Assembly: GCF_004123845.1 (NCBI RefSeq)
Contig: NZ_NBDP01000003.1
Coordinates: 558,001 to 622,000 of the forward strand
Direction of reading: 5' to 3'
Origin: Allobosea sp. Tri-44
GTDB lineage: Bacteria; Pseudomonadota; Alphaproteobacteria; Rhizobiales; Beijerinckiaceae
DNA: 64,000 bases
In this document: positions 9,210 to 64,000 of the stretch, piece by piece
How the letters are laid out: the number at the start of each line of letters is the position of its first letter
How positions within the stretch are numbered: position 1 is the stretch's first letter
Notes under the pieces: generated by a model
Told to the model about the DNA's origin: nothing
The model's database searches: none
What the model saw: only the letters and a program-made list of their open reading frames with translations
Position numbers and translations under genes: made by a program

Positions 9210-9232
9210 CCGTATGAGGCAGGAGCCGCAGC

Positions 9233-11628: not shown

Positions 11629-11651
11629 GCCGGCGCTCGATCCGGGGCGGC

Positions 11652-12284: not shown

Positions 12285-12295
12285 TCCGCGACGAT

Positions 12296-15866: not shown

Positions 15867-15894
15867 GCCTCCTTCCCGGGGACAACCGGATTGG

Positions 15895-16003: not shown

Positions 16004-16008
16004 AGTTG

Positions 16009-17778
16009 TCAGCGCAGCAGCGGGATCGCCGGTCCCAGCGTCCGTAAGGCCGCATCGATCTCGGGGGTGAAGGCGGCGCCGAAGAAGGGGCCGCGGACCT
16101 CGAACGGCACGCGCGTCGAGGTCGTGGTCGAGCTCAGGGCACCATTGAGATCGAGCCAGCGCCGACTGAGATCGGCAGTGCCGTTGAGGACGACGCCATA
16201 GCCCGAGCCGGATAGCTGGGTGTCGGTGAGGTAGACCACGCCGAGATTGGCGAGCGCGGAAAGCTGCAGGGTTTCGAAGGCGCTCTTGCCCTGGCGCCAG
16301 TCGCGCGCGGAGGCCGGAGGCTTCTCGGCCTTGCGCAGCAAATCGGGGAAGGCGATGCCGCGGAACTCGCCCTGCCGGATCGTCAGATTGGCCCGGCCGG
16401 TCAGCGAACTCACCACCTGGTCCAGGCTGCTTCCGACGCCGTCGAAGGCGAGCTGGCCGGTGGCCGTGCCGCTGAGGCGGGCGAGTTCCGGCAGGTCGTC
16501 GGCCACCAGCGCCAGGTTCACCTTGTCCAGCCCGAGCTGCAGCTTGACGTCCGAGCCGGCTGCAACCGGTGTGGCGAGGATGCGGGCGCGGGCCGAGCCG
16601 CCATAGGCCGCGGCGCGCAGGAGCGAGGCTTCGAACCGGCCTCTGCGGATCAGCAGCTGCGCCGCGAGGTCGCGGACATGGGCGCTGCCGATCCGGGCGG
16701 AATCGAGCGACAGGCGCAGGTCGATATCATTGGTGGTCCAGCCGTCGAATTCGAGCGGTACGCTACCGGCATCATTACCTCCGGGAGGTGCCGGCAGCCC
16801 GGCCTGCTGGAGCAGCCGGCCGAGATCGAACTCGGCTCCGGCGAGCGTCCCGGAGAGCGCCCAGTTCGGCATCGAGCCGTCGAGCTTGAGCGCGCCTTCG
16901 AGCTGGTCGCCATCGACCATGGCGACGACGGAGTCGAGCGAGGCGCTGTCCTGATTGAGCTGGGCCTGCGCGGTCAGCTCGACCTGCCGAACCAGAGAGG
17001 CGATGCGCGGGCGCGGGCCGACCCAGGCCAGGGCGTCCGAGAGCGATTTCGTGCTGAACTCGATCTGGCCGTTGGTGACGCCCTGCGCTGCCGAACGCGT
17101 GCCGTTGAACCGCAGGCTCATCAGCCGCGAGCCGAGGGAGAAGGCTGTGCGCGCCCGCTCCCCCGCCACCGGCCAGAGCAGATCGACCTTGGTGGCTTCG
17201 CCGCGCCAGGTGAACGAGCCGGCGAGGGTGACCGGCGCCTGGGCAGTCCGCTCGTCGATCATCACATTGACGTCGCGCAGCGTGGTCAGGACCGTCTCAC
17301 CAGCACGGACCATGACGCTACCGGAGGTCAGGACGAGCCGGGTCTGGCTCTCGAGACGGGTAAGATATCCAAGGGCTCGGTTCTGCCACTCGGCATAGCT
17401 GCCGCCGGTGTCCGCGACAGCAAGATCGAGCTCGGGGGCGACGAGGTCGATGCGGTCGAAATCGAGCTGGCCGCCGATCAGCGAGAGCAGCCGGGCGCGG
17501 GCTCGCAGGCGCGCCGCCTTGCCGGACAGCACGCCCTGCGGATCGACGAAACTCACATCCGACAGGCTGATCCGGGGCAGGGGCAGGAAGGCGATCTCGG
17601 CGCGGCGCAGCGCCGTCACCTTGAGGCCGGTCCGGGCCTCGATGCCGGCGACGACGGAACGCTCGACATGCGACAACGCCAGATTCCACGGCCGCAGCCC
17701 GAGGACGAGCAGCAGCGCAGCGGCGGCGAGGCCGAGGAAGAGTGTGCGTCGTGACATGGCCTGGCGTTTGGCCTTCAT
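16009..17778 (-). CDS. AsmA family protein
   Basis: The product is about 589 residues: a single N-terminal membrane anchor (LFLGLAAAALLLVLGL) followed by a long beta-rich periplasmic region with the AsmA pattern (early VTALRRAEIAFLPLPRISLSDV, late GTATGQLAFDGVGSSLDQV and IRQGEFRGIAFPDLL). AsmA-like proteins are thought to help move or arrange lipids between membranes. Start choice is uncertain: a TTG at 17811 and an ATG at 17757 are in frame, and none has a clear ribosome site. It converges on gyrA. Confidence 0.85.
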   Translation of the reverse strand: MKAKRQAMSRRTLFLGLAAAALLLVLGLRPWNLALSHVERSVVAGIEARTGLKVTALRRAEIAFLPLPRISLSDVSFVDPQGVLSGKAARLRARARLLSLIGGQLDFDRIDLVAPELDLAVADTGGSYAEWQNRALGYLTRLESQTRLVLTSGSVMVRAGETVLTTLRDVNVMIDERTAQAPVTLAGSFTWRGEATKVDLLWPVAGERARTAFSLGSRLMSLRFNGTRSAAQGVTNGQIEFSTKSLSDALAWVGPRPRIASLVRQVELTAQAQLNQDSASLDSVVAMVDGDQLEGALKLDGSMPNWALSGTLAGAEFDLGRLLQQAGLPAPPGGNDAGSVPLEFDGWTTNDIDLRLSLDSARIGSAHVRDLAAQLLIRRGRFEASLLRAAAYGGSARARILATPVAAGSDVKLQLGLDKVNLALVADDLPELARLSGTATGQLAFDGVGSSLDQVVSSLTGRANLTIRQGEFRGIAFPDLLRKAEKPPASARDWRQGKSAFETLQLSALANLGVVYLTDTQLSGSGYGVVLNGTADLSRRWLDLNGALSSTTTSTRVPFEVRGPFFGAAFTPEIDAALRTLGPAIPLLR

Positions 17779-17936
17779 CGGCCCGACGGCGGAGGTGTCG
17801 TCGTCAGGCAACCTGATATCGCGGCCGAATCGGCTTGAGGCGGCCGATATATGTCGCGCGGCAAGGGTTTAGCCCCCCGGTTTACGAATGTCGAGTTCAG
17901 CGCCCCGGGAGAAGGTCGCAAAGCCGGGGAAACAGT

Positions 17937-19634
17937 TCAATTTTCCCGCGAGACTGGCAGCTGTTCGCCGGCGCGGGCGAGCCTGAGCGCCGGATAGATG
18001 CCGATCGCGACGATCAGCAGGGCTGCCAGTGCACCATCCTCGAACACGCCGCGAGCGGCATGTCCGTAAACCAGCGTGGCGAGCGTATCGAAGTTGAGCG
18101 GCCGCAGCAGCAGTGTCGCCGGCAGCTCCTTCATGCAGTCGACGAAGACGAGCAGGGCGGCAGCTGCGATGGCGGGGCGCATGAGTGGCCAATGCAGCCG
18201 GTGCAGGAGCTCGTGCCTGTTCGCGCCGAGCGAGCGCGCCGCGTCGTCGATGCGCGGCGAGATGCGGGCATAGCCGCTTTCGACGCCGTTCACCGCGATG
18301 GTCAGGAAGCGCACCAGATAGGCGATGACCAGCGCCGCGCCGGAACCGAGCAGCAGCAGGCCAGGGCTCGCGCCAAAAAGTGCGCGGCTCGCATCGGCGA
18401 CGAGGTTGTCGAAGGCTGCGAGCGGCACCAGCAGTCCGAGGGCCAGCACTGTCCCCGGCAATGCGTAGCCGAGCGAGGCGATGCGGGCGAGGGCCGGCAG
18501 GGCGCGCTCGCGCCCGAGCCGCAGCGCTGCGGCGATGCCGAGCCCGATGGCGACGATCAGCACGGCCGAGAGCGCCGAGATCGAGACGGTGTTGGCGAGC
18601 GCGCGCCAGAGCGCCGCATCGGCCTGGGCGAAGAGGTCGCGGCGCCACAATTCGCCGAGCAGATAGGTGAGCGGCAGCACCGCGCCGAACAGTGCGGGCA
18701 GGAAGCAGGCGACTGCCGCCGCCCAGGCAGGGGCGCCCGAAAGCCGGATGCGCCCGACCGGCCGCGGCCGCTTCACCGGCAAAGTGAAGCGCCGCGCCCC
18801 GCGCGTGCGCGCCTCGGTGACCATCAGCCCGACCACGACGAGCAGCATCACGCAGGCGATCTGGGTTGCGCCCGCCAGCGAGCCGCGGTTGATCCAGGTT
18901 GTGTAGACCGAGATGGTCAGCGAGCGGACGCCGAGATACTCGCTGGCGCCGATGTCGTTCAGCGTCTCGAGCAAGGCCAGCGTCAGCCCGGCGGCGAGGG
19001 CGGGGCGGGCCATCGGCAGGCCGATGCGCCAGAACAGCGGCCAGCGCCTGGTTCCGAGCGTGCGGGCGGATTCGATCAGCGCGGCGCTCTGCATCGCAAA
19101 GAGCGCGCGCACGCTGAGATAGACGTAAGGGTAGAGCACGAGCCCGAGGATCAGGATCGCGCCCGGCAGGTTGCGCGGATCGGGGAACCAGTAGTCGCGT
19201 AGCGAGCGCCAGCCGGTGAGTGCCCTGAGCGCGCTCTGGAACGGCCCCTGGAAGCCGAGGATTTCGACGTAGACGTAAGCCGTGATGTAGGTCGGCAGCG
19301 CCAGCGGCAGCACGAGCAGCCATTCCAGGCTGCGGCGGCCGGGGAATTCGTACTGCGTCACCAGCCAGGCAGCGCCGGTTCCGACGGCGCCGCAGAACAG
19401 GGCGATGCCGGCGAGCAGCAGGGCCGTGTTCCAGAGCGCGATCGGCAAGACGTTGGCGGTCAGATGCGGCCAGACCGTCAGCGCCTCGCGCGACAAAGCG
19501 GTGAAGGCCAGCGCCAGCACCGGCAGCGCGACCAGGCCCGCGGCTGCCACCGCGACGTAGAGCAGACGCGTCGACGGCCGCCAGCGGGTTGCCGGCGGCC
19601 GTTCTGCAGGTGTCGCGGATGCGTTCAGGCTCAA
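17937..19634 (-). CDS. Ferric iron ABC transporter permease (fused double permease)
   Basis: A 565-residue protein with about 12 membrane helices in two homologous halves. Each half carries a permease EAA-type loop (ESARTLGTRRWPLFWRIGLP in the first, DAARSLGANRHELLHRLHWP in the second) for docking an ATPase. This is the FbpB/SfuB layout. Its start overlaps the stop of the upstream binding protein by 4 bases, so the two form an operon. No FbpC-type ATPase gene follows; the next gene downstream is the unrelated AsmA-like one. Confidence 0.9.
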   Translation of the reverse strand: MSLNASATPAERPPATRWRPSTRLLYVAVAAAGLVALPVLALAFTALSREALTVWPHLTANVLPIALWNTALLLAGIALFCGAVGTGAAWLVTQYEFPGRRSLEWLLVLPLALPTYITAYVYVEILGFQGPFQSALRALTGWRSLRDYWFPDPRNLPGAILILGLVLYPYVYLSVRALFAMQSAALIESARTLGTRRWPLFWRIGLPMARPALAAGLTLALLETLNDIGASEYLGVRSLTISVYTTWINRGSLAGATQIACVMLLVVVGLMVTEARTRGARRFTLPVKRPRPVGRIRLSGAPAWAAAVACFLPALFGAVLPLTYLLGELWRRDLFAQADAALWRALANTVSISALSAVLIVAIGLGIAAALRLGRERALPALARIASLGYALPGTVLALGLLVPLAAFDNLVADASRALFGASPGLLLLGSGAALVIAYLVRFLTIAVNGVESGYARISPRIDDAARSLGANRHELLHRLHWPLMRPAIAAAALLVFVDCMKELPATLLLRPLNFDTLATLVYGHAARGVFEDGALAALLIVAIGIYPALRLARAGEQLPVSREN

Positions 19635-50400: not shown

Positions 50401-50597
50401 GCGACGAGATCCTGCATCTCGCGCGCGGTCGCGCCCGGCCATACGGTCGTGACCGTCAGCGTCTTGATGGTGAAGCTCGGGTCCTCCGCACGTCCCAGCA
50501 TGAAGAAGGCATAGGCGCCGGCGGCGACGAGCAGGATGATCGAGAACAGGGTGACGGCCCGTTCGCGAACGGCGATGGCCGAGAGATTGAGGCTCAT
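47490..50597 (-). CDS. RND efflux transporter permease subunit
   Basis: The 1035-residue AcrB/MexB-like inner-membrane pump has 12 helices and two large periplasmic loops. The proton-relay pair is in [18 protein letters not shown], with typical [27 protein letters not shown] and [16 protein letters not shown] segments. The second half repeats with [21 protein letters not shown]. Substrates are unknown. Its start overlaps the adaptor gene stop by 4 bases. No outer-membrane TolC-type gene is adjacent. Confidence 0.95.
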
Positions 50598-51715
50598 TTG
50601 CTACCCCTGCTTTGGGGATCAATCCGGACGCGAACGCCGTCTTGCAGAAGATGCGCTCCGAGCGCGACAACCGGCTGGCCGACGCTCAGTCCGGAGATCA
50701 CGGCCGTCTCGCTCGTGACCCGCACAAGCTTGATAGGGCGAAATTGAACCGTCGAGGTCGCTCCATTCAGGAGCCAGACACCCGTTTTTTGACCATCGTC
50801 CAGCACTGCACCGAGCGGCACCTCCATTTCCGGCTGGCTTGCCTGGTTCGCCAACCTGATGGTGACGGTCGCTCCGAGCGGGGCTGTCGCGGCCTCTCCT
50901 GCGAGAACGTAGCGCGCTTCATAGGTGCGGGTCTGGGAATCCGCAGAATCGGAGAGCTGCCGGAGGGTGGCTCCATAGCGGCGCAGGTCTGTGCCGTAGA
51001 GGCTCGCTTCGGCGTTCGAGCCGATCGTCGGCCTGATTGTCTCGGGGAGCGAAACGACCGCTTCACGGGGGCCGGCCTGGGCTAGCCGAATAACCGTCTG
51101 GCCGGCGGAGACAACCTGTCCCGGCTCGCCCAGCGTTTCGACGACAATGCCATCGGCGTCGGCGACCAGAAGGGAATAGCCTGACCCGTTTTCAGCGACC
51201 TTCTCGTCCGCTTCTGCGGCGGCGAGCTGGGCCACGGCGGTATCCAGCGCAGCCTTTGCCTGCTCGTAGCGCTGCGGGCTCGCAGCAAAACCGTCCTTGA
51301 CCAGAACGGCATAGCGCTTCTCGTCAGCTCGCGCCTGAACCAGAACGGCGCGAGCCGCCGCTGTAGCGTTGCGCTTTGCGGTGAGCGCGAGCTGGAGATC
51401 AGTCTCGTCGATCCGCATGAGCGCCTGACCGGCTGAAACGGCCTGCCCGACATTCACACGCCGTTCGACGATCTTGCCGGCAACGCGGAAGCCCAGATTG
51501 CTTTGGACACGGGCTGCGATGACACCCGTGAAGCGGCGTTCGGCGTCGACGACCGGCGCGGGAGTCGCCAACCTGACGATCGGAGCATTCTGCCTCGGGT
51601 CGCTCACGGCAGAAGCCTTCTGCGAGCGCGCCGAGAGCATGACGAACGCCGCGACCGCGGACGCTGCGAACACAACGCTCCCTGCGACGATTACCGATCT
51701 CATTTTCTTGCCCAT
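50594..51715 (-). CDS. RND efflux periplasmic adaptor subunit (membrane fusion protein)
   Basis: The 373-residue MFP has an N-terminal anchor (VIVAGSVVFAASAVAAFVML), lipoyl half-motifs (GFRVAGKIVERRVNVGQAVSAGQALMRID and SLLVADADGIVVETLGEPGQVVSAGQTV), an alpha-hairpin between them (residues about 105-165) and a beta-barrel domain. It links the RND pump to an outer-membrane channel. First gene of the operon, divergent from tetR across the palindrome at 51727. Confidence 0.93.
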   Translation of the reverse strand: MGKKMRSVIVAGSVVFAASAVAAFVMLSARSQKASAVSDPRQNAPIVRLATPAPVVDAERRFTGVIAARVQSNLGFRVAGKIVERRVNVGQAVSAGQALMRIDETDLQLALTAKRNATAAARAVLVQARADEKRYAVLVKDGFAASPQRYEQAKAALDTAVAQLAAAEADEKVAENGSGYSLLVADADGIVVETLGEPGQVVSAGQTVIRLAQAGPREAVVSLPETIRPTIGSNAEASLYGTDLRRYGATLRQLSDSADSQTRTYEARYVLAGEAATAPLGATVTIRLANQASQPEMEVPLGAVLDDGQKTGVWLLNGATSTVQFRPIKLVRVTSETAVISGLSVGQPVVALGAHLLQDGVRVRIDPQSRGSK

Positions 51716-51726
51716 CGCCTCGAACC

Positions 51727-51781
51727 AATTAGATTGCGTATGACATCTATAAGTTATATAGATTACAAACGCAATCTAATT
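51727..51781. promoter_or_regulatory. Nested palindromic operator between tetR and the RND operon
   Basis: AATTAGATTGCGT (51727-51739) and ACGCAATCTAATT (51769-51781) are exact reverse complements, 29 bases apart. Inside them ATCTATAAGTTATATAGAT (51745-51763) has exact 6-base arms. The site fills the whole 77-base AT-rich gap between the divergent starts, so it is the likely TetR operator controlling both directions. Confidence 0.8.
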
Positions 51782-51792
51782 TGGAGATCCCC

Positions 51793-52398
51793 ATGCGTGT
51801 GACGCGGCAGCAGGCCGAGGAAAATCGGCAAACGGTCATTGACGTGGCCAGCCGTCTGTTCCGGCAGCACGGCTTCGACGGCATTGGCCTGAAGGATCTG
51901 ATGGCCGGTGCCGGGTTGACGCAGGGCGCCTTCTACAAGCAGTTCGAATCCAAGGATGACCTGGCCGCGCAGGCCTCAAGGCGCGCCCTGGAGAGCGCCT
52001 CGGGCCGGTGGTCGGCTGCGGCCCGGTCCAATCCCGAAGACCCGCTGTCGGCCGTGGTCGATTTCTATCTCAGCATGGGTCACTGCGCCGAGAAATCGGA
52101 TGGCTGCCCCATCGTTGCGCTGGGTTCGGATGCCGCCAGGCAAGGTCCGGACGTGAAGGCGGCGTTCCAGGCCGGGATCGAAGACCATCTCGAGATGCTG
52201 GGTGGCTGGGTCGGCAACGCCGAAGACGCCGCGGCTGATGGCCGGGCTATGGCCGTCCTCTCGACGATGGTTGGCGCAGTGCTCCTTTCACGCGCCGTCA
52301 ACGACGAGCATATGTCGAAACGGCTCCTGCAGGCGGCCGCCGAGAGCGTGCTGGCACAGTTGCCTGCGGGCGAGGCACGGTCGGGACCGCGCCAATGA
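51793..52398 (+). CDS. TetR/AcrR family transcriptional regulator
   Basis: The 201-residue repressor has the TetR helix-turn-helix at its N-terminus (VIDVASRLFRQHGFDGIGLKDLMAGAGLTQGAFYKQFESKDDL, residues about 15-57) and a ligand domain with a Cys pair (GHCAEKSDGCPI) seen in some TetR_C members. The ATG at 51793 with GGAG before it is preferred to a TTG at 51781. Divergent from the RND efflux genes and the probable repressor of them. Its stop overlaps an ORF of relic origin (ATGA at 52395). Confidence 0.92.
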   Translation: MRVTRQQAEENRQTVIDVASRLFRQHGFDGIGLKDLMAGAGLTQGAFYKQFESKDDLAAQASRRALESASGRWSAAARSNPEDPLSAVVDFYLSMGHCAEKSDGCPIVALGSDAARQGPDVKAAFQAGIEDHLEMLGGWVGNAEDAAADGRAMAVLSTMVGAVLLSRAVNDEHMSKRLLQAAAESVLAQLPAGEARSGPRQ

Positions 52399-52810: not shown

Positions 52811-53947
52811 TCAATGGACAGTGGTTGAGAGCAGTTTCCGAGGCAGCGAGCTCAAGCGCCTGCAGCCTTCGGTTTCGAGCACGATCGTTTCGCTGAACCC
52901 CAAGCCACCTGCTGTCGTATACATGTGAAATACCATGCTCTCTTCAAGTCTCCAGCGGGCGTTCGGCAGGAACACGCGAGAGAAGTCGCTCGGGCGCGGC
53001 GTGCGGCCATAGAGGCCGAGCGTGTATCCGGTGACGTTGTCATATACTGGGCGCAAGCCCTCGCGAAGTACGGCTTCGCGCAGCACAGCATCGACGTCGC
53101 ATGCTAAGGCGCCAGGCCGCATCGCTGCGAACTGGCGATCCTGGAGCGCGACGAGACGCTCGGCGAGTGGCAAAAGCTCCCGCTGGTCCCCGCCAATCAA
53201 GACCGGACGCATCAGTCGTGCGCCGTAATTGCGCACTTTCGGGATCAGTTCGACATGCAGCACACCGCCTTCAGCCAGAGGCTGATCGGTCATGACGCCA
53301 TGCAGGAATTCATGGCCGCCGATACCCGGCACGATCGGCCCGGTTTCACCTGTATCAGCGCCGTTCTCCAGGAAGCAGGCGGCGGCGATCGCGGCAGCGG
53401 CGCGCGGCGAAATCCCGGGCCGCGCCAGCGCGGCGATGGCCATCATCGCCTTGTCGGCGATGCCGGCGGCGCGGGCGATCAGATCCACCTCGGCCGGCGA
53501 CTTTACCGCACGCAGCAGGTCGCTCGCTTGCGGCAGGTCGACGAAGCGCGTGCCCGGCAGCAACGCTGCGAGCCGGTCGCGCGTTGCGGCGGTGAAGCCG
53601 TAAGAGGCGTGATCGGAGCCGATCGTGCAGCTGGCGAAGCCGCGGCGCCGAAGTTCCTCCGCCATCACCACATGCGGCTCATCGGTATCGGCGAAGCCTA
53701 CGATGTCGGTAAACCAGCAGGCGTCGCGGCACGGCGCGGCGTCGAGTTCGCGCAACACGAACCAGGGCTCGCCCTCGCGCGGCAGGAAGGCGGCGCGGTA
53801 CATCGTCTCCGAGACCGTGTAGCCGGTCAGCCAGGCGAGGAACTCCGCGTGGTCGACCAGCAAAAGGTCGGCGCCGGCCTCGGCCATCGCCGAGCGGGTT
53901 CTTGCGACCCGCGCCGCGAACTCCTCGCGCGGAAAAGGAGCGCTCAC
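52811..53947 (-). CDS. M24 family protein of the creatinase/ectoine hydrolase (DoeA)-like type
   Basis: The 378-residue protein has an N-terminal creatinase-like domain (EEFAARVARTRSAMAEAGADLLLVDHAEFLAWLTGY) and a pita-bread domain. The usual five metal ligands are mostly replaced: HVELIPKVRNYGARLMRP lacks both Asp, VFHMYTT replaces a Glu site, and only SETIVLETEG keeps its Glu. This pattern fits the metal-free creatinase/ectoine hydrolase branch, which opens cyclic or amide C-N bonds, rather than aminopeptidase P. Its start overlaps the M20 gene stop by 4 bases. Last in the operon. Confidence 0.8.
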   Translation of the reverse strand: MSAPFPREEFAARVARTRSAMAEAGADLLLVDHAEFLAWLTGYTVSETMYRAAFLPREGEPWFVLRELDAAPCRDACWFTDIVGFADTDEPHVVMAEELRRRGFASCTIGSDHASYGFTAATRDRLAALLPGTRFVDLPQASDLLRAVKSPAEVDLIARAAGIADKAMMAIAALARPGISPRAAAAIAAACFLENGADTGETGPIVPGIGGHEFLHGVMTDQPLAEGGVLHVELIPKVRNYGARLMRPVLIGGDQRELLPLAERLVALQDRQFAAMRPGALACDVDAVLREAVLREGLRPVYDNVTGYTLGLYGRTPRPSDFSRVFLPNARWRLEESMVFHMYTTAGGLGFSETIVLETEGCRRLSSLPRKLLSTTVH

Positions 53948-55164
53948 GCCACCTCGCAGATGTCCAGGATCGTCAGCATGTAAATGCGGACCATGTCGAG
54001 GAAGTCGCGGATCTCGACGCGCTCGTCGGGCATGGTGTTGTAGCGCCCCCCCGGACCGCAGACGACGCCCTCCATGCCGGGCTGGGCGTAGAGATGGCCG
54101 GCATCGGTGCCGAAAAAGCCCGGCGGCCTGATCGCGCCTGTCGGCTGTTTCTCGCCGCGCACGACCTCATAGGCGGCGTTGATCGCCTTGACGATGCGGG
54201 CGTCCTTGGCGACCTCGAAGGCCGGCATGGAACGGTGCCCTTCCTTCTTCTCAATCCGGATCGAGGTTTTCAGGCCGGGAAAGCGCTGCTCGAGCGCTGT
54301 CAGCTCGCGCTGCATATCTGCAAGCGCGCCGTCCTGCGTCTGTCCCGGCGCGAAACGACCCGAGCCCTTCAGCTTGCAGTAGTCGGCGACCTGTGGCGCC
54401 CGCCATTCGTGCAGCTCCTTGCCGAGCGCGCCATGCATCACACCGACATGGACGCGGTTGATCGATTCGTGCTCGGGGGAGGGGGCGCCGGAAAAGGTCA
54501 TGGCGTTGAGGCGCGGGACGAGATCGCAGGCTGCCATGATGGCGTCGACGGCATGCTCGCGCTTGGAGAGATGGCGCGTATTGCCGACGAGCTCGATGAC
54601 GAAGGAAAAGGCGCAGGCGTGCATGGTCACGGCCTGCACGTCGGTCGGCTCGCTGTTGACGAAGTAGTCGGCGCGGATGCCGCTCTCGATCGCCGCGACC
54701 GTGCCGACACCGCCCTGCAACTCGCCGACGACATAGGTCAGGATCACGTCGCCCTTCAGCTTCACATCGGCGCCGAGCAGCGTCTTCACGGCGCAATAGG
54801 AGGCTGCATCGCCCGCCTTCATGTTCGAGACGCCGATGCCGTAGATGAACTCCTCGTCCACGACGCCGCCCCAAGGATCGACCGTCCAGCCTTCGGTGGC
54901 GGGATTGGTGTCGAGATGGCCGTTGAAGAGAAGGCTCTTGCCGCCGCCCGTACCCTTCCACAGGCCGATGGCGTTGGCGCGGCGGCCCTCGTCGAAGCTT
55001 TGCATGTGCGCCTCGATGCCCATCGCCTGCATCTGACCGACGACATGATGGACGAGCGCCTTCTCGCCCTCGGTTTCCGAGTAGCTCTTGTGCTTCACCC
55101 AATCGGAGAGCAGCGCGAGGCAGGCGTTCTCGTCGAGCGAATGGATCAGGTCACGATAGGTCAT
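53944..55164 (-). CDS. M20 family metallopeptidase/deacylase (ArgE/DapE-like)
   Basis: The 406-residue protein has M20 segments: LFNGHLDTNPATEGW (metal His-x-Asp), YGIGVSNMKAGDAA (here Asn in place of the usual bridging Asp), VVGELQGGVGT (catalytic/metal Glu region altered, EL in place of EE) and FFGTDAGHLYAQPG near the end. The changed ligands may alter metal use or reduce activity. The ATG at 55164 has an AGGA site. Encoded between the transporter ATPase and the M24 gene, so probably acts on the imported compound. Confidence 0.83.
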   Translation of the reverse strand: MTYRDLIHSLDENACLALLSDWVKHKSYSETEGEKALVHHVVGQMQAMGIEAHMQSFDEGRRANAIGLWKGTGGGKSLLFNGHLDTNPATEGWTVDPWGGVVDEEFIYGIGVSNMKAGDAASYCAVKTLLGADVKLKGDVILTYVVGELQGGVGTVAAIESGIRADYFVNSEPTDVQAVTMHACAFSFVIELVGNTRHLSKREHAVDAIMAACDLVPRLNAMTFSGAPSPEHESINRVHVGVMHGALGKELHEWRAPQVADYCKLKGSGRFAPGQTQDGALADMQRELTALEQRFPGLKTSIRIEKKEGHRSMPAFEVAKDARIVKAINAAYEVVRGEKQPTGAIRPPGFFGTDAGHLYAQPGMEGVVCGPGGRYNTMPDERVEIRDFLDMVRIYMLTILDICEVA

Positions 55165-55183
55165 GGTCGGCTGTCCTGAAGCT

Positions 55184-56812
55184 TCAAGCGGCAGCTGAGG
55201 CCGGCGCGGGCACGGCTTCGAGCAGGGAGCGGGTATAGGGATGCAAGGTGCCGCCCGAGAGGGCGGCGACATCGACCAGATCGACGAGGTCGCCGCGATG
55301 CATCACGGCGATACGGTGGGCGATCTGACGCACGAGGTTGAGGTCGTGCGTGATGAAGAGGTAGGCCGTGCCAAAGCGCTTCTGCAGGTCGACAAGGAGC
55401 TCGACCACGGAAGCCTGCACCGAGACGTCAAGCGCCGAGGTGATCTCGTCGCAGATCACGAGCTTTGGCTTGGAGGCGAAGGCGCGGGCAATGGCGACGC
55501 GCTGCTTCTCGCCGCCGGACAACTGGTGCGGATAGCGCTCGGCATAGGATGCAGGCAGTCGCACCTGCTCCAGCAGTTCGCCGATCAGCCTGGCGTCCCG
55601 GCGCACGCCCGGCTCGCCATAGAGCGCGAGCGGTCGCGACAAGATCTCACGGATGCGATGGCGCGGATTAAGCGAAGAATCCGGGTGCTGGAAGATGATC
55701 TGGACATCGCGACGATAGGCGCGGTTCATGTCGGAAAGGCCTCCGATCCGGCGGCCGTCGAAGCGGATTTCGCCCTCGAACGGGTTCAGGCCGGTCATCG
55801 CCTTGGCGAGCGTCGATTTGCCCGAGCCGGATTCGCCGACGATGCCGAGGATCTCCCCGGGCATGATCGAGAGGCTGACTTCGCGATTACCCGTGAACTG
55901 CGTGTTGGTGCGTCCAAGCAGTCCGGCGAGGAAGGGCTTGCGACCGTAGTGGACACTGACTTTCTCGACCTCGACCAGCGGCTTCGCTCCGGACTCGGGC
56001 TCCGTGCGGGGTTCGACCAGCCGGTTATCCGGCCGCGGCACGGCCGCGAGAAGCTTCTGCGTATAGGCGTCGCGCGGGTGGGCGAAGACGTCGCGGACCG
56101 GGCCCTGCTCGACGATCTTCCCGCGATGGATCACCGCGACTTTCGTGGCGATCTGCGAGACCAGCGCGAGATCGTGCGAAATGTAGAGCGAGGCGACGCC
56201 GGTATCTTCCTGCAGCGATTTGAACAGGTCGAGGATCTGTCGGGCGGTGATCACATCGAGTGCCGTGGTCGGCTCGTCGAAGATGATGCATTCCGGCTGG
56301 CAGGCGAAGGCGGTCGCGATGACGACGCGTTGTTTCTCGCCGCCGGACGCCTCGTGCGGATAGCGCCGCATCATCTCCTTGGGCAGCTTGAGGCCGACAT
56401 GGGCGAGACGTTGCTCGCCTTCCGCCCAGGCCTGTTTGGGCGTCAGACTGCGATGGCGCACCAGTACCTCTGCGAGCTGCTCGCCAAGCGGCAGCGTCGG
56501 GTTGAGCGAGGTGCTGGGATCCTGGAAGACCATGCCGATGCGTCGGCCGCGGATGGCGCCGATCTCGGCCTCCGTCGCCTTCAGCAGGTCCTGCCCGGCA
56601 AAGCCGATGCGCCCGGTCTCGCGCGCCGTCTCCGGCAGATAGCGCATGATCGCCCAGGCGAGCGAGGTCTTGCCGGAGCCGGATTCGCCGACAAGGCCAA
56701 GCACCTCGCCTTTCGCGACAGACAGCGTGACGTCGTCCAGGGCGCGCATAAAGCCGCCGGGCGTAGCGTAGTCGAGGCCGTAGCCGGCGATCTCGAGGAT
56801 CGGTGCGCTCAT
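55184..56812 (-). CDS. Peptide-type ABC transporter double ATP-binding protein (DppD-DppF fusion)
   Basis: The 542-residue protein has two ATPase domains in one chain. First: Walker A GESGSGKTSLAW, signature ASGGEKQRV (Ala for Leu at the first position), Walker B IIFDEPTTALD. Second: GESGSGKSTLAK, LSGGEKQRVAIARA, Walker B LVICDEITSALD. Each ends with the oligopeptide-type C-terminal segment (RDAYTQKLLAAVP and LHPYTRSLLEAVP). The layout is that of GsiA/YejF-like proteins that power both permeases. ATG at 56812. Confidence 0.94.
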   Translation of the reverse strand: MSAPILEIAGYGLDYATPGGFMRALDDVTLSVAKGEVLGLVGESGSGKTSLAWAIMRYLPETARETGRIGFAGQDLLKATEAEIGAIRGRRIGMVFQDPSTSLNPTLPLGEQLAEVLVRHRSLTPKQAWAEGEQRLAHVGLKLPKEMMRRYPHEASGGEKQRVVIATAFACQPECIIFDEPTTALDVITARQILDLFKSLQEDTGVASLYISHDLALVSQIATKVAVIHRGKIVEQGPVRDVFAHPRDAYTQKLLAAVPRPDNRLVEPRTEPESGAKPLVEVEKVSVHYGRKPFLAGLLGRTNTQFTGNREVSLSIMPGEILGIVGESGSGKSTLAKAMTGLNPFEGEIRFDGRRIGGLSDMNRAYRRDVQIIFQHPDSSLNPRHRIREILSRPLALYGEPGVRRDARLIGELLEQVRLPASYAERYPHQLSGGEKQRVAIARAFASKPKLVICDEITSALDVSVQASVVELLVDLQKRFGTAYLFITHDLNLVRQIAHRIAVMHRGDLVDLVDVAALSGGTLHPYTRSLLEAVPAPASAAA

Positions 56813-56817
56813 CTCCC

Positions 56818-57642
56818 TCAGGTCCTCGGGTTCAGCGCATCGCGCAGCCCGTCGCCGAGCAGGTTGAAGCCAATCGCTACCAGCGCGATGGCGAGGCTCG
56901 GCCACAAGATCATCCAGGGACTCAGATGCATGAAGCGGCGTGCCTCCGAGACCATGAGCCCCCATTCGGATGCCGGCGGCTGCGCGCCGAGGCCCAGGAA
57001 GGAGAGAGTGGCGAACAGCATCACCGCGAAGGCGACGCGGATCGTCATCTCGACGACGATGGGCGCGATCACGTTGGGCAGCATCTCCCGCCCGACGATG
57101 AAGGCGGCGCTCTCGCCGCGTGCGACGGCGGCGTTGACATAGTCCTGCTTGCGGACGGCGAGCGCGACCGAGCGCGTGATCCGCGCCATGCCGGGTGTGA
57201 AGGCGAGGCCGATCGCGAGCAGCGCGTTGACGCTGCTCTTGCCAAGCAGGTTCACGATCAGCAGCGCCAGCAGCAGGCTGGGGATCGACATGATGGCATC
57301 TACGGTGCGCATGATCGCCTCGTCGCTGCGCCCACCGAGGAAGGCGGAGACGGTGCCGACCACCGCGCCGACCAGCGTGCCGAGCGCCGTGGCGAGCAGG
57401 GCCATGACCACGGTCGCGCGGGCGCCATGCAGGAGGCGGCTGAGGATGTCACGTCCGTACTGATCGGTACCGAGCCAGAACTGCGCGCTCGGCGGCTTGT
57501 AGCGCTGCAGCGGCGCCATCGTCTCGGGATTGTAGGGCGCGAACCAGGGCCCAACGACGACGACCAGCAGGATCAGCCCGACGATCAGCAGGCCGAGCAG
57601 CCCCTGTGGCGAGCGCAGCATGCGCTTGAGGATCTCAATCAT
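56818..57642 (-). CDS. Peptide-type ABC transporter permease (DppC-like)
   Basis: The 274-residue inner-membrane permease begins MIEILKRMLRSPQGLLGLLIVG, has the N-terminal OppC segment LGTDQYGRDILSRLLHGAR and the EAA loop VNAAVARGESAAFIVGREMLPN, and ends LGDGLRDALNPR as DppC proteins do. About six helices. Overlaps the DppB-like gene by 8 bases. Start at the ATG at 57642 instead of a 14-residue longer form. Confidence 0.93.
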   Translation of the reverse strand: MIEILKRMLRSPQGLLGLLIVGLILLVVVVGPWFAPYNPETMAPLQRYKPPSAQFWLGTDQYGRDILSRLLHGARATVVMALLATALGTLVGAVVGTVSAFLGGRSDEAIMRTVDAIMSIPSLLLALLIVNLLGKSSVNALLAIGLAFTPGMARITRSVALAVRKQDYVNAAVARGESAAFIVGREMLPNVIAPIVVEMTIRVAFAVMLFATLSFLGLGAQPPASEWGLMVSEARRFMHLSPWMILWPSLAIALVAIGFNLLGDGLRDALNPRT

Positions 57643-58582
57643 ACTGGATCCTCCGGTCGAGCCAGGCGTAACAGACGTCAGCAAGGAAGTTCACGACGGC
57701 ATAGGTCGTCGCCATGATCAGCGCGCCCGCCTGGATCGACGGGAGGTCACGGGCCTGGATCGCGACGATGAGCTGGCGGCCGATGCCGGGCAGGGCGAAG
57801 ATTTCCTCGACGACGATAACGCCACCGAGCAGGTATCCGACATCGAGCGCGACGATGGTGATCGTCGGCAGCAGCGCGTTGCGTAAGCCATGCTTGAACA
57901 GCACCTGCCACTTTGACAGGCCCTTGAGCCGCGCGGCACGGATATAGTCAGAATGCATGACGTCGATCAGCTCGGAGCGCACCATGCGGGAGACATGCGC
58001 GATCAGGATCAGCGACACGGTCAGCACAGGCAGGACGAGATGCCTGATGCCGCGCAGCGGATCTTCCGTGAGCGGCACATATCCGGTCGCCGGCAGCCAT
58101 TGCAGCCAGTCGGCGAACACGAGGACGACGAGCGTGGCAGTGACGAATTCCGGCAGCGAGACGCCAACATAGGAAACGACGCTGACGCCGAGATCGGCTG
58201 CGCGTCCCCGCCGCACCGCCGCCAGGATGCCGAGCGGGATCGCCAGCACCAGCATCAGGACGATCGAGAACAAGGCGAGCAGCAGCGAGCGGCCGAGCGC
58301 TTCGATCATCGCCGGCGCGACCGGCTGGCCGGTGCGCATCGAGACGCCAAAATCGCCCCGCACGACGCCGCCGAGCCAGTGCAGATACTGCATCCAGATC
58401 GGGTCGTTCAGCCCCATCTTGACGCGCAGTGCCGCCAGCGCATCAGGCGTCGCGTTCTCGCCCAGCACCATGACGGCGGCGTCCGCCGGCAGGATCTGGG
58501 TGATCGCGAAGACGATCAGTGACACGACGAGGAGCGTGTAGCCGATCAGCAGGATGCGTTTGAGGATGTAGGCCGGCGACAC
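57635..58582 (-). CDS. Peptide-type ABC transporter permease (DppB-like)
   Basis: The 315-residue permease has six helices. It starts at a GTG (MSPAYILKRILLIGYTLLVVSLIVFAI) with GAGGG before it. DppB features: ITQILPADAAVMVLGENATPDALAALRVKMGLNDPIWMQYLHWL, GDFGVSMRTGQPV and the EAA loop IRAARLKGLSKWQVLFKHGLRN, ending FLADVCYAWLDRRIQYD. Pairs with the DppC-like permease. Confidence 0.93.
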   Translation of the reverse strand: MSPAYILKRILLIGYTLLVVSLIVFAITQILPADAAVMVLGENATPDALAALRVKMGLNDPIWMQYLHWLGGVVRGDFGVSMRTGQPVAPAMIEALGRSLLLALFSIVLMLVLAIPLGILAAVRRGRAADLGVSVVSYVGVSLPEFVTATLVVLVFADWLQWLPATGYVPLTEDPLRGIRHLVLPVLTVSLILIAHVSRMVRSELIDVMHSDYIRAARLKGLSKWQVLFKHGLRNALLPTITIVALDVGYLLGGVIVVEEIFALPGIGRQLIVAIQARDLPSIQAGALIMATTYAVVNFLADVCYAWLDRRIQYD

Positions 58583-58607
58583 TGCGCTTCTGCCCTCGCT
58601 AGTCCGC

Positions 58608-60161
58608 TCAGCCGCGCTTCGGCGCGTTGGCGCCGAGCGAGACCTGGTCGAGCCGGAAGACGGCGCCGCGCGGATGCAGCTCGTAGCCCTGCACCCATTC
58701 GCGCTGCGCGCCGAGCAGGTCGAAGAAGGCCGGGATGATCGAGGGCACCTCGGCATTCATCAGCTTCTGCGCATCGGCATAGAGCGCGCGGCGCTTGGCC
58801 TCCTCGACGGTGGCGCGGGCCTCGAAGATGAGCTTGTCGAAGGCCGTGTTGTTCCAGCGCGTCTCGTTCCATGCGGCGTTCGAGGTGTAGAGCAGCGAGA
58901 AGATGGCGTCGGCGGTCGCCTGCATGTTGTAGAAGCCGACATAGAACGAGCCCTTCTTCCAGACCTGATCGAGATAGGTCGCGTGCGGCATCGTCTCGAC
59001 CTTGATGTCGAAGCCCGCGGGCTTGGCCATCTCGCGCAGGGCAACGGCGAGTTGCGTGCGCAGACCCGGCCGGTCGGAGGCGATCAGCGTCGCTTCCAGG
59101 CCCTTGGGATAGCCGGCTTCCGCCAGCAGGGACTTGGCCTTGGCGATGTCGGCCTGCTTCAGCGGCTGCTCGGCATAGAAGCGATAGGCCGGGTTGAGGG
59201 GCGCGTCGTTGCCGACCGAGCCGAAGCCCTCGGTGACGAAATCGACCATCGTCTTGCGGTCGACCGTCAGCGCTAGCGCCTGGCGCACGCGGATATCGTT
59301 GAAGGGCTTCTGGTCGCAGCCGAAATTGACGTTGCAGAACTGGCCCGAGGGCACGCGCAGTGCCTTGACGCCCGAGGCCTTCTGGAGCCGGGCGAACTCG
59401 GTCGGCGGGGTAGTGGTGATGAGATCGGTGTCGCCGGAGATCAGGGCGGAGGCCTCCGCACTGACGTCGGGATAGACCACGACCTCGATGCGATCGAGAT
59501 AGGGGCGCGCCTTGTCGTAGAATGCATCGTTGCGGGCGACGACGATCAAGCGCTCCGGCTCGAAGGAGACGAGCTTGAACGGGCCGGTCCCGATCGCCTG
59601 GCGGTCGAGCTTCTCCAGACCGCCCTTGGTGACGGCGGCGGGGACGATCTTGGCGTTGGTGTAGGCGAGCGTGACGGGCAGGTCGGCGAAGGGCGCCGAA
59701 AGCGTGAAGACGACGGTGGTGTCGTCCTTCGCCGCGACCTTGGAGACGGGGCCGACATTCTGACGCGCGGGCGAGGCGGTCTTGGCATCGAGGATCGCCT
59801 CGAAGGTCGCGACCACGTCGGCGGCGGTGCAGGGCGAACCGTCATGGAAGCTCAGGCCCTTGCGCAGGCTGAAAGTCCATTCGGTCAGGTCGACGGAGTT
59901 GGTCCAGGATTCGGCGAGGTCGGGCTCGGCGCTCATATCGGGCTTGAGGCGCGTCAGGCCGGAATAGAGCAGTTCGGCGACCAGATATTCCGGGTTCACG
60001 CGGGTGACGAGCGGGTTCAGCTTGGCGACGGCCTGGTCAACGCTGACCCGCAGCGTGCCGCCCCGCCGCGGCGTCTGCGCGAAGGCCGGCAGGCCGGACA
60101 TGGCGAGGCCGCTCAGAGCGGCGGAAGCGGCGAGGAAATCGCGACGATGGATGCTCGGCAT
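58608..60161 (-). CDS. Peptide-type ABC transporter substrate-binding protein, Tat-exported
   Basis: The 517-residue SBP_bac_5 protein has a twin-arginine signal (IHRRDFLAASAALSGLAMSG, cleavage near AFAQ). Mature segments: YSGLTRLKPDMSAEPDLAESW, WTFSLRKGLSFHDGSP, GTGPFKL and FNDIRVRQALALTVDR. It presents the substrate to the DppB/C-like permeases encoded just downstream. ATG at 60161. The Tat export may mean it folds in the cytoplasm before transport. Confidence 0.93.
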   Translation of the reverse strand: MPSIHRRDFLAASAALSGLAMSGLPAFAQTPRRGGTLRVSVDQAVAKLNPLVTRVNPEYLVAELLYSGLTRLKPDMSAEPDLAESWTNSVDLTEWTFSLRKGLSFHDGSPCTAADVVATFEAILDAKTASPARQNVGPVSKVAAKDDTTVVFTLSAPFADLPVTLAYTNAKIVPAAVTKGGLEKLDRQAIGTGPFKLVSFEPERLIVVARNDAFYDKARPYLDRIEVVVYPDVSAEASALISGDTDLITTTPPTEFARLQKASGVKALRVPSGQFCNVNFGCDQKPFNDIRVRQALALTVDRKTMVDFVTEGFGSVGNDAPLNPAYRFYAEQPLKQADIAKAKSLLAEAGYPKGLEATLIASDRPGLRTQLAVALREMAKPAGFDIKVETMPHATYLDQVWKKGSFYVGFYNMQATADAIFSLLYTSNAAWNETRWNNTAFDKLIFEARATVEEAKRRALYADAQKLMNAEVPSIIPAFFDLLGAQREWVQGYELHPRGAVFRLDQVSLGANAPKRG

Positions 60162-60172
60162 GGGACGCTCCT

Positions 60173-61501
60173 TCAGCTCTGGGATATCGTGATGTCGGGG
60201 TTGAGATCGGGCCGGAAATCGGCAGCGAGATAGGAAAGTACCGCCCGCGCCAGCGAGACGATGTCGGAGACGGTGGTGTATTCGCCCGGCGCGTGGATGT
60301 TGCGGTCGGGCCTGCCCAGTCCGCCGAGCAGCACCTCCCGGACGCCGGTGGCGCGCTGGACCCATCCGAAATCGGAGCAACTCGCGGCTCCCCAGCGGCG
60401 GAACTCTTCCGGCGCATAGCCGAAGCCCGCGCCGACGGCAGCCTGCCAGCGCGGCCAGTGCGGGCCGGCCGGATCACTGGTCGGAGCAAGATGACCGGTC
60501 AGCACCGTCTCGACGGTCAGGCCGGGTACGGAGGCGACAGCGCGGCGGATCGTATCCTCGATCTCCGCGAGCGCTCCGTCGAAAGCCTCCTCTGGCATGT
60601 ACCGACGGTTCAACGTGAGCTCGAGCAGGGCCGGCACCTGTCCGCCAGCGGTACCGCCGTCGATCGTCGCAATGTTGAGCTGCGCGGCAAGCGCAGGCTT
60701 GCCGGGCGGTGGCGGCAGCGCAGATATCCGGCTTGCAATGCGCGCTTTCAGCGCTGCAAGTGCATTGAGCAATGGCAATGCCCCTTCGATTGCGTTGAGG
60801 CCGCTTCCCTGTCGGTTGCCCTCGCCGGCATGGACTGCCTGTCCGTGCACGCGCACGAGCAGGTTGAACAAGCCGAAGCAGCCGGCCCAGATCCGCGCCT
60901 CGGCGCTGCCGTTGAAATTGACGATATGGCCGCGGAGCCGACCCTGCTCGGCTAGATAGCGGATGCCAGGATAGAGGCCGCCCTCCTCATCGGTGCAGAA
61001 CAGCAGCATCGGATCGTAGGCGAGTTCGATGCTGCAGGCTTCGGCGGCCTGCAGCGCCAGCAGTACGGCGGCGATGCAGCCTTTCATGTCGGCTGCGCCA
61101 AGCCCGATGAGGCGCTCGCCGTCGCGGGCCATGGCCTGCGGATCGGTTCTCCAACCCGGCGCGGCAGGAACGGTGTCGACATGAAAGTACAACCCGCAGA
61201 CCGGCTTGCCGCTCCCGCGGGTTGCAACGAGGTTTGTCCTGGCGCCGATGGCCGGTCCGCTTGGCATCCGCCAGAGTTCCTCCGGCACGTCGATGTGCTC
61301 GGATTCGAAGCCGAGCGGGCGCGTCATCGTCTCCATCAGCATCGCGAAGTCGCCATAGCCTCGGCCCGGCGGGAATGAGGTATCGATCGCGATCATCCGG
61401 CCGAGATCAACCACCGCATCCTCGACCGCGCCGGCGACCCAGCTATGTCCGCGCGCCAGGGCCGGGGTCTCTCGATCAGCCCTGCCGGCAGCCATCGTCA
61501 T
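60173..61501 (-). CDS. M20 family metallopeptidase/deacylase (ArgE-like)
   Basis: The 442-residue protein has intact M20 motifs: GLYFHVDTVPAAPGW (metal His, Asp), GLGAADMKGCIAA (bridging Asp), LFCTDEEGGLYPG (catalytic Glu-Glu) and a late His in PDRNIHAPGEYT. It differs from the other M20 gene of this operon, whose ligands are altered. First gene of the leftward operon, 128 bases from the divergent GntR gene. The start may be the ATG here or two codons later (MAAG). Confidence 0.87.
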   Translation of the reverse strand: MTMAAGRADRETPALARGHSWVAGAVEDAVVDLGRMIAIDTSFPPGRGYGDFAMLMETMTRPLGFESEHIDVPEELWRMPSGPAIGARTNLVATRGSGKPVCGLYFHVDTVPAAPGWRTDPQAMARDGERLIGLGAADMKGCIAAVLLALQAAEACSIELAYDPMLLFCTDEEGGLYPGIRYLAEQGRLRGHIVNFNGSAEARIWAGCFGLFNLLVRVHGQAVHAGEGNRQGSGLNAIEGALPLLNALAALKARIASRISALPPPPGKPALAAQLNIATIDGGTAGGQVPALLELTLNRRYMPEEAFDGALAEIEDTIRRAVASVPGLTVETVLTGHLAPTSDPAGPHWPRWQAAVGAGFGYAPEEFRRWGAASCSDFGWVQRATGVREVLLGGLGRPDRNIHAPGEYTTVSDIVSLARAVLSYLAADFRPDLNPDITISQS

Positions 61502-61597
61502 CGCATCGCCTCGCCCGGCTGGGCTGTCGGGACGCGATCTGCCATGGAGATGGCGAAGGTGGCGGCTTGCTTGTCCATTGGCCGGCTGAGTGCTTTC

Positions 61598-61610
61598 ATA
61601 TAAACTATAT
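61598..61610. promoter_or_regulatory. Small palindrome in the GntR/M20 divergent promoter
   Basis: ATATA and TATAT flank AAC in ATATAAACTATAT, in an AT-rich patch 20-32 bases before the GntR start. It could be a promoter -10 element or an operator for the GntR protein; the evidence is weak. Confidence 0.35.
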
Positions 61611-61629
61611 AGAAATAGGACTCATTCGT

Positions 61630-62439
61630 ATGCCGCCTGTCAACGTCAAAAAAACGACCGCGCCTGCCGCGGGATTGATCAATGGCGGCGATGTAGCTTC
61701 GACGTTGCCGAACCTCGTCTCACTCGATTCCGCGCCGCTCTACGAACGGGTGAAGCGGCACATGTCGGAAGCGATCCTTGTTGGCGAATGGCAGCCTGGC
61801 ATGGTGTTGCCCAGCGAAACGGCGTTGGCGCAGGGGTTTGGGATCGCCGTCGGCACCGTACGCCGGGCGATGAGCGATCTGGTCGCCGAGGGTTTACTGT
61901 CACGCCGGCGCAAGACGGGTACCGTCGTCACCGGCCGCGCGCCGCATCATTCGCTGCGCTTCTTCTTCCAATATTTCCGCCTTCACCGCGCAGATGGCAG
62001 CCTGGTGAAGTCGACCAGCCGATTTTTAAGCATCGAGGGGCGAGCCGCTACGGGCGAAGAGGCAGAGCGTCTTCAGATTTCGTCCGGCGGCGTCATCGCC
62101 ATCCACCGCATCAGGCATGCTGATGGTCGCCCTGTCATGCACGACAAGCTGCTATTCGCCGAGGAGCGCGTTCCCGGTCTTCCGCGAGAGATCGAGGCGC
62201 TACCCTCCCTTCTCTATCTGCATCTTCTGGAGCGGTACGGGATTCGCGTCTCCGCCGTCCGCGAGCAGATCACGGCCGATCTGGCGAGCGACGAGGACAT
62301 GGCCCTGCTCGGCCTCGATCAGCGCGAAGCCGTCCTCACCATCGATGAGGTCGCTTATGATCAGGCAGGTTTGCCCACGATTCTCGGCGTTCACCGTGCC
62401 TGCACGCGCAATCACGTTTACATAAACGAGGTTCGGTAG
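61630..62439 (+). CDS. GntR family transcriptional regulator (HutC subfamily, UTRA domain)
   Basis: The 269-residue regulator has an N-terminal winged helix-turn-helix (PLYERVKRHMSEAILVGEWQPGMVLPSETALAQGFGIAVGTVRRAMSDLVAEGLLSRRRKTGTVV, about residues 37-102) and a C-terminal UTRA ligand domain (RLQISSGGVIAIHRIRHADGRPVMHDKLLF, then YGIRVSAVREQITADLAS). Divergent from the peptidase/transport operon and its likely regulator, with the imported compound or a product as effector. ATG at 61630 follows a divergent AT-rich promoter. Confidence 0.9.
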   Translation: MPPVNVKKTTAPAAGLINGGDVASTLPNLVSLDSAPLYERVKRHMSEAILVGEWQPGMVLPSETALAQGFGIAVGTVRRAMSDLVAEGLLSRRRKTGTVVTGRAPHHSLRFFFQYFRLHRADGSLVKSTSRFLSIEGRAATGEEAERLQISSGGVIAIHRIRHADGRPVMHDKLLFAEERVPGLPREIEALPSLLYLHLLERYGIRVSAVREQITADLASDEDMALLGLDQREAVLTIDEVAYDQAGLPTILGVHRACTRNHVYINEVR

Positions 62440-62828: not shown

Positions 62829-64000
62829 TCACCTCGCGCAAGTGAAGCTTGTAGCTTGGTCGGGGTCGCCACCTTGATATCTGGGGTAGCTCGGGTATTC
62901 GCAGAGCGGGCGGGCACGGCCTGGCTTGAAGTGCGTATCAGTAATGACTGGAGCCGTCGGCGCGGCGCCGCCGGCGACCCACGCATCCAGTGCACCGAGA
63001 ACGTCCCAGCTCGGATTGAAGGAGACTCCGAAGCCGCTGTGGGCAGTGCCGGGGAGCTCGTAGAACCTCAGAAACCGGGAGACCGCCTCACGGCCCATGG
63101 TGGCGACGAGGCGGTCGTAATAATCGACCGACGCTTGAGGCGGAATGATCTGGTCGGCGAGACCATGCATCAGCAGGATCTTGCCACCGCGTTTTTGGAA
63201 GCTGGAGAGATTTGTGCCGCTCATGTCGAGCAATCCGGCGAGCATGCTTAAGCGGTCCTGCCACTCGCCTGGCTTCTCGGGGTCGATATTCTGCCAGCTT
63301 CCCTGCGGATTTCTCGTCACGAAAAAACGCGCGTATTGGTCGGCAAAAACATGAAGGAAGGGCATGCCGGGAGCAGCGGGGTAGGCTGAGGCAACCTTGC
63401 CGAGCCCCTGCGTCAGCACGCCCTTGGAAAGGTCGTCCGTCTCGCGCGACCCCAGGTCCACGCCCCAGACGTAGAACCCCGGATAGCCCTTTTCCCCGCT
63501 CGCAAGCGGCGCATCGAGTTTGAGGGGGGAACCCATGACTTTGAGGGCACTGATCTGGACATCCGACAGGCAACTGTCGCGGTCGACGGCACCGTCCAGA
63601 CAGCGCAACGGTCGGCCGTTGACGGTGGCCTTGTCGGGGTCGAAGGTCTGCTGGCATGCGCGGGCATTCGAGATCACACCATCGCGGATGCCATCAAGTC
63701 CGTCGCAAGCCTCCAACGCAGCGTCCAGGACGACCTTGCGCTGGGACATCGACAGATAGGCGCCGGGTGCAGCGAAGGCGCGCGCGATGCGGGCAAACTG
63801 GAGATGGGCCGTGCCAGCATGCGTCGCGGGCCAGAACACCATGGCGCCGTCGAGGTCGTCAGGATACCGCTGGATGAGACCCAGCGCCTCCTTGCCTCCG
63901 GTTGAGCTGCCGTGGAAGTAGAGCTTCTCGTGCGTTCGCCCGTAACGGAGCTTGATCACGTGCGCGGCAACATCTCGCGTCTTCTTGAGGGCGTCGAAAG
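62829..64000 (-). CDS. Tannase/feruloyl esterase family protein (N-terminus outside window)
   Basis: The frame is open across the right edge (TRDVAAHVIKLRYGR at 63960-64000), so only about the last 390 residues are present. The serine-hydrolase elbow is LYFHGSSTGGKEALG; late segments ILLMHGLADQIIPPQASVDYY (Asp) and LPGTAHSGFG (His) complete the triad. Four or more Cys (LEACDGLDGIRDGVI, NARACQ, LRCLDG, DSCLSD) match the disulfide-rich lid and calcium region of tannases. These exported enzymes cleave gallate or ferulate esters of plant phenolics. Signal peptide not visible. Confidence 0.88.
   Translation of the reverse strand, partial: FDALKKTRDVAAHVIKLRYGRTHEKLYFHGSSTGGKEALGLIQRYPDDLDGAMVFWPATHAGTAHLQFARIARAFAAPGAYLSMSQRKVVLDAALEACDGLDGIRDGVISNARACQQTFDPDKATVNGRPLRCLDGAVDRDSCLSDVQISALKVMGSPLKLDAPLASGEKGYPGFYVWGVDLGSRETDDLSKGVLTQGLGKVASAYPAAPGMPFLHVFADQYARFFVTRNPQGSWQNIDPEKPGEWQDRLSMLAGLLDMSGTNLSSFQKRGGKILLMHGLADQIIPPQASVDYYDRLVATMGREAVSRFLRFYELPGTAHSGFGVSFNPSWDVLGALDAWVAGGAAPTAPVITDTHFKPGRARPLCEYPSYPRYQGGDPDQATSFTCAR

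Follow-up and report, generated by a model that had tools for sequence, protein, structure and literature searches.

What compound is served by a bacterial locus in which a peptide-type importer, two proteins of the M20 fold, an M24 protein and a divergent regulator are packed together? Such a locus lies at positions 52811 to 62439 of a 64,000-nucleotide stretch (hereafter, the window; positions 558,001 to 622,000 of contig NZ_NBDP01000003.1) in the 6.05-Mb genome of Allobosea sp. Tri-44. The positions, strands and Pfam domains of its open reading frames all agree with the original prediction of seven leftward genes and a divergent GntR regulator, and the claim that these form a self-contained uptake-and-hydrolysis operon is supported by the conservation of the gene set and by an apparently dedicated operator. 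Adjacent operon genes overlap or are separated by no more than about 30 bases, with start codons chosen by us under the guidance of conserved parts. The answer that we favour, tentatively, is an operon devoted to the catabolism of an N-blocked amide or a lactam-like amino-acid conjugate and induced by its substrate.

The locus was traced in other genomes through its second M20 protein, M20B (53944..55164, minus strand; Peptidase_M20 in Pfam). From the scan of genomes the best 80 of 273 loci were kept, a choice that favours close relatives and intact context. M20B was also present in 61 plasmid records, nine of which were taken for host diversity; one of the nine, L099, lacks annotation and was left out because it represents the same place as L056. 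The resulting set, which includes the window and eight plasmid loci, contains 93 rows and 91 distinct sequences (L089 and L090 are doubles of L031 and L055, respectively). The closest M20B relatives (85-92% identity) are mostly from Bosea, plus one record labelled Methylobacterium and one from Rhizobiales. The Methylobacterium-labelled record (L009, a metagenome-assembled genome) is a 20-kb contig whose M20B is 92% identical to that of the window, and its organism label may be wrong.

Seventy-eight loci have at least 8 kb of upstream sequence, and in 77 of them genes for the binding protein, DppB, DppC and the ATPase precede M20B in one fixed order, the exception being L056 from Microvirga. 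M20A, the first M20 protein, is present in 70 of the 78 loci and the GntR gene in 67 (counts per 78, 70, 67 and, below, 47 include the window and contain no doubles). The original prediction had staked its case on the genes being conserved together elsewhere, and this is what the 77 loci reveal. Plasmids of Pantoea, Duffyella, Sodalis, Paracoccus and Terrarubrum carry the identical gene order, including M20A, and a Variovorax plasmid keeps the operon order without M20A and M24. The locus is thus a unit conserved in alphaproteobacteria, gammaproteobacteria and a plasmid of Variovorax, and its co-linearity in such distant genera is far beyond chance. It is sparse in even samples: 5 of 289 genomes sampled within the class carry it, as do 2 of 398 sampled across the phylum (the Tri-44 genome is counted in both), and one genome of the same genus in an even sample gave no match to the system. 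Among 44 loci, mirror-tree correlations were r 0.84-0.97; these values carry no correction for the phylogeny of the species and on their own show little. In the same loci M20B had the lowest mean divergence (0.189) among seven proteins, a comparison that did not include DppC. The last gene, encoding the M24 protein (52811..53947, minus strand; Peptidase_M24 and Creatinase_N in Pfam), begins at a GTG that overlaps the M20B stop by 4 bases. Of 86 distinct loci, 54 have an M24 gene behind M20B, 47 of them at an identity of at least 45%. M20B, rather than M24, is therefore the constant partner of the transporter and the core of the system.

M20B also has an unusual active site. The two metals of M20 enzymes are held by a His, a bridging Asp, the Glu after the catalytic Glu, the Glu of GEP[ST] and the His of H-x-x-[DN]-E. 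Only two of these five ligands (H83 and E172) are kept in M20B, along with E148 and the lid residue H198, and N114, L149 and T377 replace the bridging Asp, the Glu and the His ligands. The residues H83, D85, N114, E148, L149, E172, H198, N376 and T377 are common to all 91 distinct sequences, the window included, so that the altered ligands noticed in the original prediction are real and are fixed through the family. In the Tri-44 genome, the six M20 paralogues examined (of eight besides M20A) keep the canonical residues. The rebuilt M20B site would offer ligands for at most one metal. M20A (60173..61501, minus strand; Peptidase_M20), an ArgE/DapE-like hydrolase, retains all but one of the five canonical metal ligands: H107, D138, E172, E173 and H403 are conserved in all 70 sequences, and the Glu of GEPT is Gly198 in all 70, a loss that the original prediction does not mention. 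Compared with the co-catalytic M20 metallohydrolases ArgE, DapE and CPG2 and with 5-nitroanthranilate aminohydrolase, M20A is thus short of one Glu, and M20B of three ligands, the bridging Asp among them. Public records label M20B as 'M20/M25/M40 family metallo-hydrolase' or argE, names that may mislead; the protein would exemplify a strictly fixed rebuilding of a large two-metal amidase family into something else.

The importer consists of a family 5 solute-binding protein (58608..60164; SBP_bac_5), a DppB-like permease (57635..58582; BPD_transp_1), a DppC-like permease (56818..57642; BPD_transp_1) and a fused double ATPase of the Dpp/Gsi/Yej type (55184..56812; two ABC_tran stretches), all encoded on the minus strand. 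It has every component of a Dpp/Ddp importer, i.e. two BPD permeases, an oligopeptide-type ATPase and a family 5 binding protein, but not the Asp that receives the alpha-amine of the ligand. At the position of this residue in Escherichia coli DppA (408 in mature and 436 in precursor numbering), the binding protein has Met413, followed by an invariant Gln414, in all 78 members; the same column holds Asp in E. coli DppA and three DdpA proteins and Ser in GsiB. The loop carrying DppA Arg383 (precursor numbering) is absent from the binding protein and also from DdpA and GsiB. Others seem to treat the Arg383/Asp436 pair as key, as suggested by the title of PDB entry 8z1z (DppA R383D+D436R), and a passage of PMC3295651 argues from a changed Asp408 that the proteins of another clade are unlikely to carry dipeptides. 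Because the amine-binding Asp is replaced by Met in all 78 members, an ordinary DppA-like dipeptide is an unlikely cargo here as well, and the outcome that the original prediction had named as fatal to it, a binding protein that takes ordinary dipeptides only, looks improbable. We prefer, as a reading and not as a proof, a cargo without a free alpha-amine.

Comparison with known importers places the system near, but outside, several families. The fused double ATPase recalls GsiABCD (glutathione) and YejABEF (microcin C); the best models for the ATPase are indeed YejF (449.8 bits versus a cut-off of 834) and GsiA (441.4 versus 1077), both below cut-off, and it passes single-ATPase models such as PRK11308 (424.2 versus 408 bits) and NikD/NikE, with the two halves summed. 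The top structural match of the binding protein is yliB, which we take to be GsiB; GsiB likewise lacks the amine-binding Asp, but the window protein reaches only 155.4 bits against the GsiB cut-off of 594. Its best sequence match in PDB is AgaA with agropinic acid (6hlx, 184.5 bits), an N-substituted lactam. AgaA has Glu rather than Met at the aligned position, as read from the alignment.

The regulator gene (61630..62439, plus strand) encodes a protein with GntR and UTRA domains, both found by Pfam, and the HutC-type assignment given in the original prediction is accordingly correct at the subfamily level; the model for the HutC histidine utilisation repressor itself (TIGR02018) is not reached (90.6 bits versus a cut-off of 220). 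Between this gene and M20A lies a predicted operator palindrome of the TATA-n-TATA pattern (61594..61615; TTTCTATATAGTTTATATGAAA on the minus strand), which the original prediction does not mention. The palindrome is present in the GntR-M20A spacer of 66 of the 67 loci having both genes, 45 of which have the exact core CTATATAGTTTATAT in common, and base-shuffled spacers contained it in 0.6 loci on average and in 3 at most (200 rounds). The site at 61594-61615 is the only one in the 6-Mb genome of Tri-44 when up to 3 mismatches are allowed, leaving no further palindrome that would mark a regulon outside the operon. All of 40 further genomes or records, chosen as carriers of the locus, have the site: 34 have just one and six have a second, in each case with 3 mismatches; for comparison, the control pattern, a reversed one, matched eight sites, spread over five of these 40. 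GntR probably binds at this palindrome, and since the latter occurs in 66 of 67 spacers and once in the Tri-44 genome, the switch seems to be dedicated to this operon alone.

Genes that accompany the core differ between lineages. Among the records listed, eight of eight Pantoea dispersa plasmids, Pantoea sp. SOD02 and Sodalis carry a ddpX gene that lies 1.15 kb behind M20B and is read from the same strand. The two of these ten plasmids whose region was inspected have an M24 gene between M20B and ddpX, and the two DdpX proteins tested by NF007557 scored 282.9 and 271.0 bits (cut-off 176). In Paracoccus, genes for an amino acid racemase and a D-cysteine desulfhydrase adjoin the locus, and 5-oxoprolinase genes are also present. 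Six variant loci (L034, L036, L066, L077, L084 and L087) have one M24 gene at the place of M20A and another behind M20B, the products being 24-30% identical to the M24 protein of the window. A divergent GntR-type gene, read by us from translations, is also seen there; a HyuC-like M20 gene is nearby in all six (on the far side in L077), and a hydroxyacid dehydrogenase gene in five. Five of the six variant genomes have pxpA at a distance of 9-12 kb from M20B, a count uncorrected for shared ancestry, and the sixth has none on the M20B contig. An amidotransferase-like gene occurs in L077, L087 and the Variovorax locus. Behind the variant cluster of L084 (12545-19816), DapA-like, amino-acid ABC (ATP-binding cassette) transporter, hydantoinase-like and hydantoin-racemase-like genes were labelled from their translations. 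These accessory genes suggest a family of related C-N compounds, none of which is named by them: the attempt to name the substrate from DdpX, 5-oxoprolinase, the HyuC-like carbamoylase, the amidotransferase, a CN hydrolase, and allophanate hydrolase with AllG was abandoned, as these point different ways.

For the operon of the window, we propose the following course of events. The GntR-UTRA protein would sit on the palindrome between its own gene and M20A and would be released when the compound or its product binds. The binding protein, which bears a twin-arginine signal (HRRDFLAAS, read by eye) and would be exported by the corresponding (Tat) route, would capture, in the periplasm, a compound that resembles an amino acid or a peptide but has its amine blocked, such as an N-acyl compound, a lactam (pyroglutamyl-like) or an otherwise N-substituted amide; a cargo of this kind is suggested by the missing amine-binding Asp together with the deacylase-type enzymes. 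Import would proceed through the Dpp-type permeases and the fused ATPase, as expected for the family. In the cytoplasm M20A, with its four canonical ligands, would open one amide bond, and M20B may act on the same compound or its product through chemistry of its rebuilt site, with the DoeA-like M24 protein as an optional further C-N hydrolase. Because different C-N enzymes are substituted or added in other lineages, the core may handle a class of related compounds.

With more reserve, we suggest an undescribed catabolic system for a class of plant- or microbe-made N-blocked amino-acid conjugates, carried both on plasmids and on chromosomes by proteobacteria associated with plants and soil. It would be built around M20B as a new M20 clade, in which a one-metal or metal-free site replaces the two-metal centre, and would be inherited with its own importer and a single-site GntR switch. 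The word 'undescribed', already used in the original prediction, fits the outcome of our literature searches, in which narrow term combinations in open-access full text retrieved, among others, papers on ectoine and salt stress, with none on the locus among those listed. The kind of system, peptide-type import followed by hydrolysis, is known, and the details that are new are the M20B site, the binding site and the operator. With one operator, one operon and one binding protein, conserved from alpha- to gammaproteobacteria, the locus is a clean orphan-substrate case, and a screen as simple as a reporter or binding assay can therefore be used to look for its ligand.

Several observations weigh against a blocked-amine substrate and a uniform pathway. 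The ten plasmids of Pantoea and Sodalis also encode DdpX, which acts on free-amine dipeptides. The amine-binding Asp is likewise missing from all 13 other family 5 binding proteins encoded at the same loci; given this, and the Ser of GsiB, its absence argues against ligand binding in the manner of DppA without proving that the amine is blocked. M20A is absent from 8 of the 78 loci, and M20B is not accompanied by this transporter in L056 and L114, so that a given enzyme may play different roles in different lineages. In L056 (a plasmid of Microvirga sp. VF16), the intact M20B frame (10013-11227) lies among apparent transposase and fragmentary genes, as read by us, and is possibly an orphan. The M20B of L114 is the most distant (61%), and a remoter Dpp-like set (31-39%) divergently adjoins it. 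Beside it (8101-18852) are two LeuD-like genes and genes for an FCD-type GntR regulator, a xanthine/uracil permease, allophanate hydrolase, AllG and an amino-acid-kinase family protein; a ureide pathway employing an M20B is possible there.

The DdpX additions, together with the racemase and desulfhydrase genes of Paracoccus, raise the alternative that the substrate is a D-amino-acid dipeptide or a peptidoglycan-derived peptide, the system being a relative of Ddp in which the M20 and M24 proteins replace or help DdpX. As in E. coli ddpXABCDF, a Dpp-type importer and a hydrolase share one operon, but there DdpA keeps the Asp, as do all three DdpA proteins examined, the two ATPases are separate, ddpX comes first and M20 and M24 genes are missing. 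Separate operons of ddpX plus transporter genes, with RpiR-type regulators, exist; ddpX accompanies just two of 92 loci (L093 and L095); and the loci of Pantoea SO10, P. soli and Duffyella lack it. The Tri-44 genome does not qualify for the D-Ala-D-Ala (Ddp) system, a single 34-bit partial DdpX match being found elsewhere in it. We regard this alternative as unlikely. On a conjugative plasmid of Burkholderia ubonensis (L110, 10001-18765), a ddpX-type operon is followed by genes for a porin and a D-amino acid dehydrogenase. Less likely still, and in fact a sub-case of the N-blocked conjugate that we favour, is import of an opine- or lactam-type pyroglutamyl compound such as agropinic acid, its breakdown finished by 5-oxoprolinase. 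The AgaA match, pxpA in the variant genomes and the 5-oxoprolinase genes of Paracoccus are in its favour; in contrast to the AgaA system, the Pfam matches of the operon include no opine-specific enzymes.

That the operon merely scavenges ordinary dipeptides or oligopeptides with the help of general peptidases would suit its Dpp/Opp/Nik-like importer, but is improbable in view of the absent amine-binding Asp, the single dedicated operator and the unusual state in which the M20B ligands are fixed. The most doubtful of the alternatives is the ectoine-like pathway from which the original prediction had borrowed its logic, M24 opening a ring and an M20 enzyme deacylating the product. The M24 protein shares its fold with DoeA/EutD, and its alignment with DoeA covers almost the full length of the protein. 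At the positions that we take to be the M24 metal ligands, the canonical residues are absent from both proteins, in agreement with the description of the window protein as metal-free. Its His216 is invariant in the 47 sequences with at least 45% identity. However, its scores are far below the cut-offs of the DoeA models (126.6 versus 613 bits for TIGR02993 and 104.5 versus 575 bits for NF038259), 32 of the 86 distinct loci have no M24 gene behind M20B, and the M24 proteins of the variant clusters are as distant as noted above. M24 is DoeA-like but accessory. In the DoeA/EutD system ectoine is taken up by other transporters, and the ectoine deacetylase DoeB is, to our knowledge, not an M20 protein. 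Neither DoeB nor aminotransferase or dehydrogenase genes are among the Pfam matches of the operon, the part of the genome that was searched for them. Membership in ectoine catabolism was therefore rejected on the DoeA cut-offs, and the comparison was kept as a weak analogy.

Beside the 3' end of the operon (50594-52398), a gene for an RND-type membrane fusion protein, read from its translation, is divergent from a TetR-family regulator gene (Pfam). Just outside the GntR gene, the minus strand encodes a tannase/feruloyl esterase family protein (62829-63959; PF07519, 249.5 bits).

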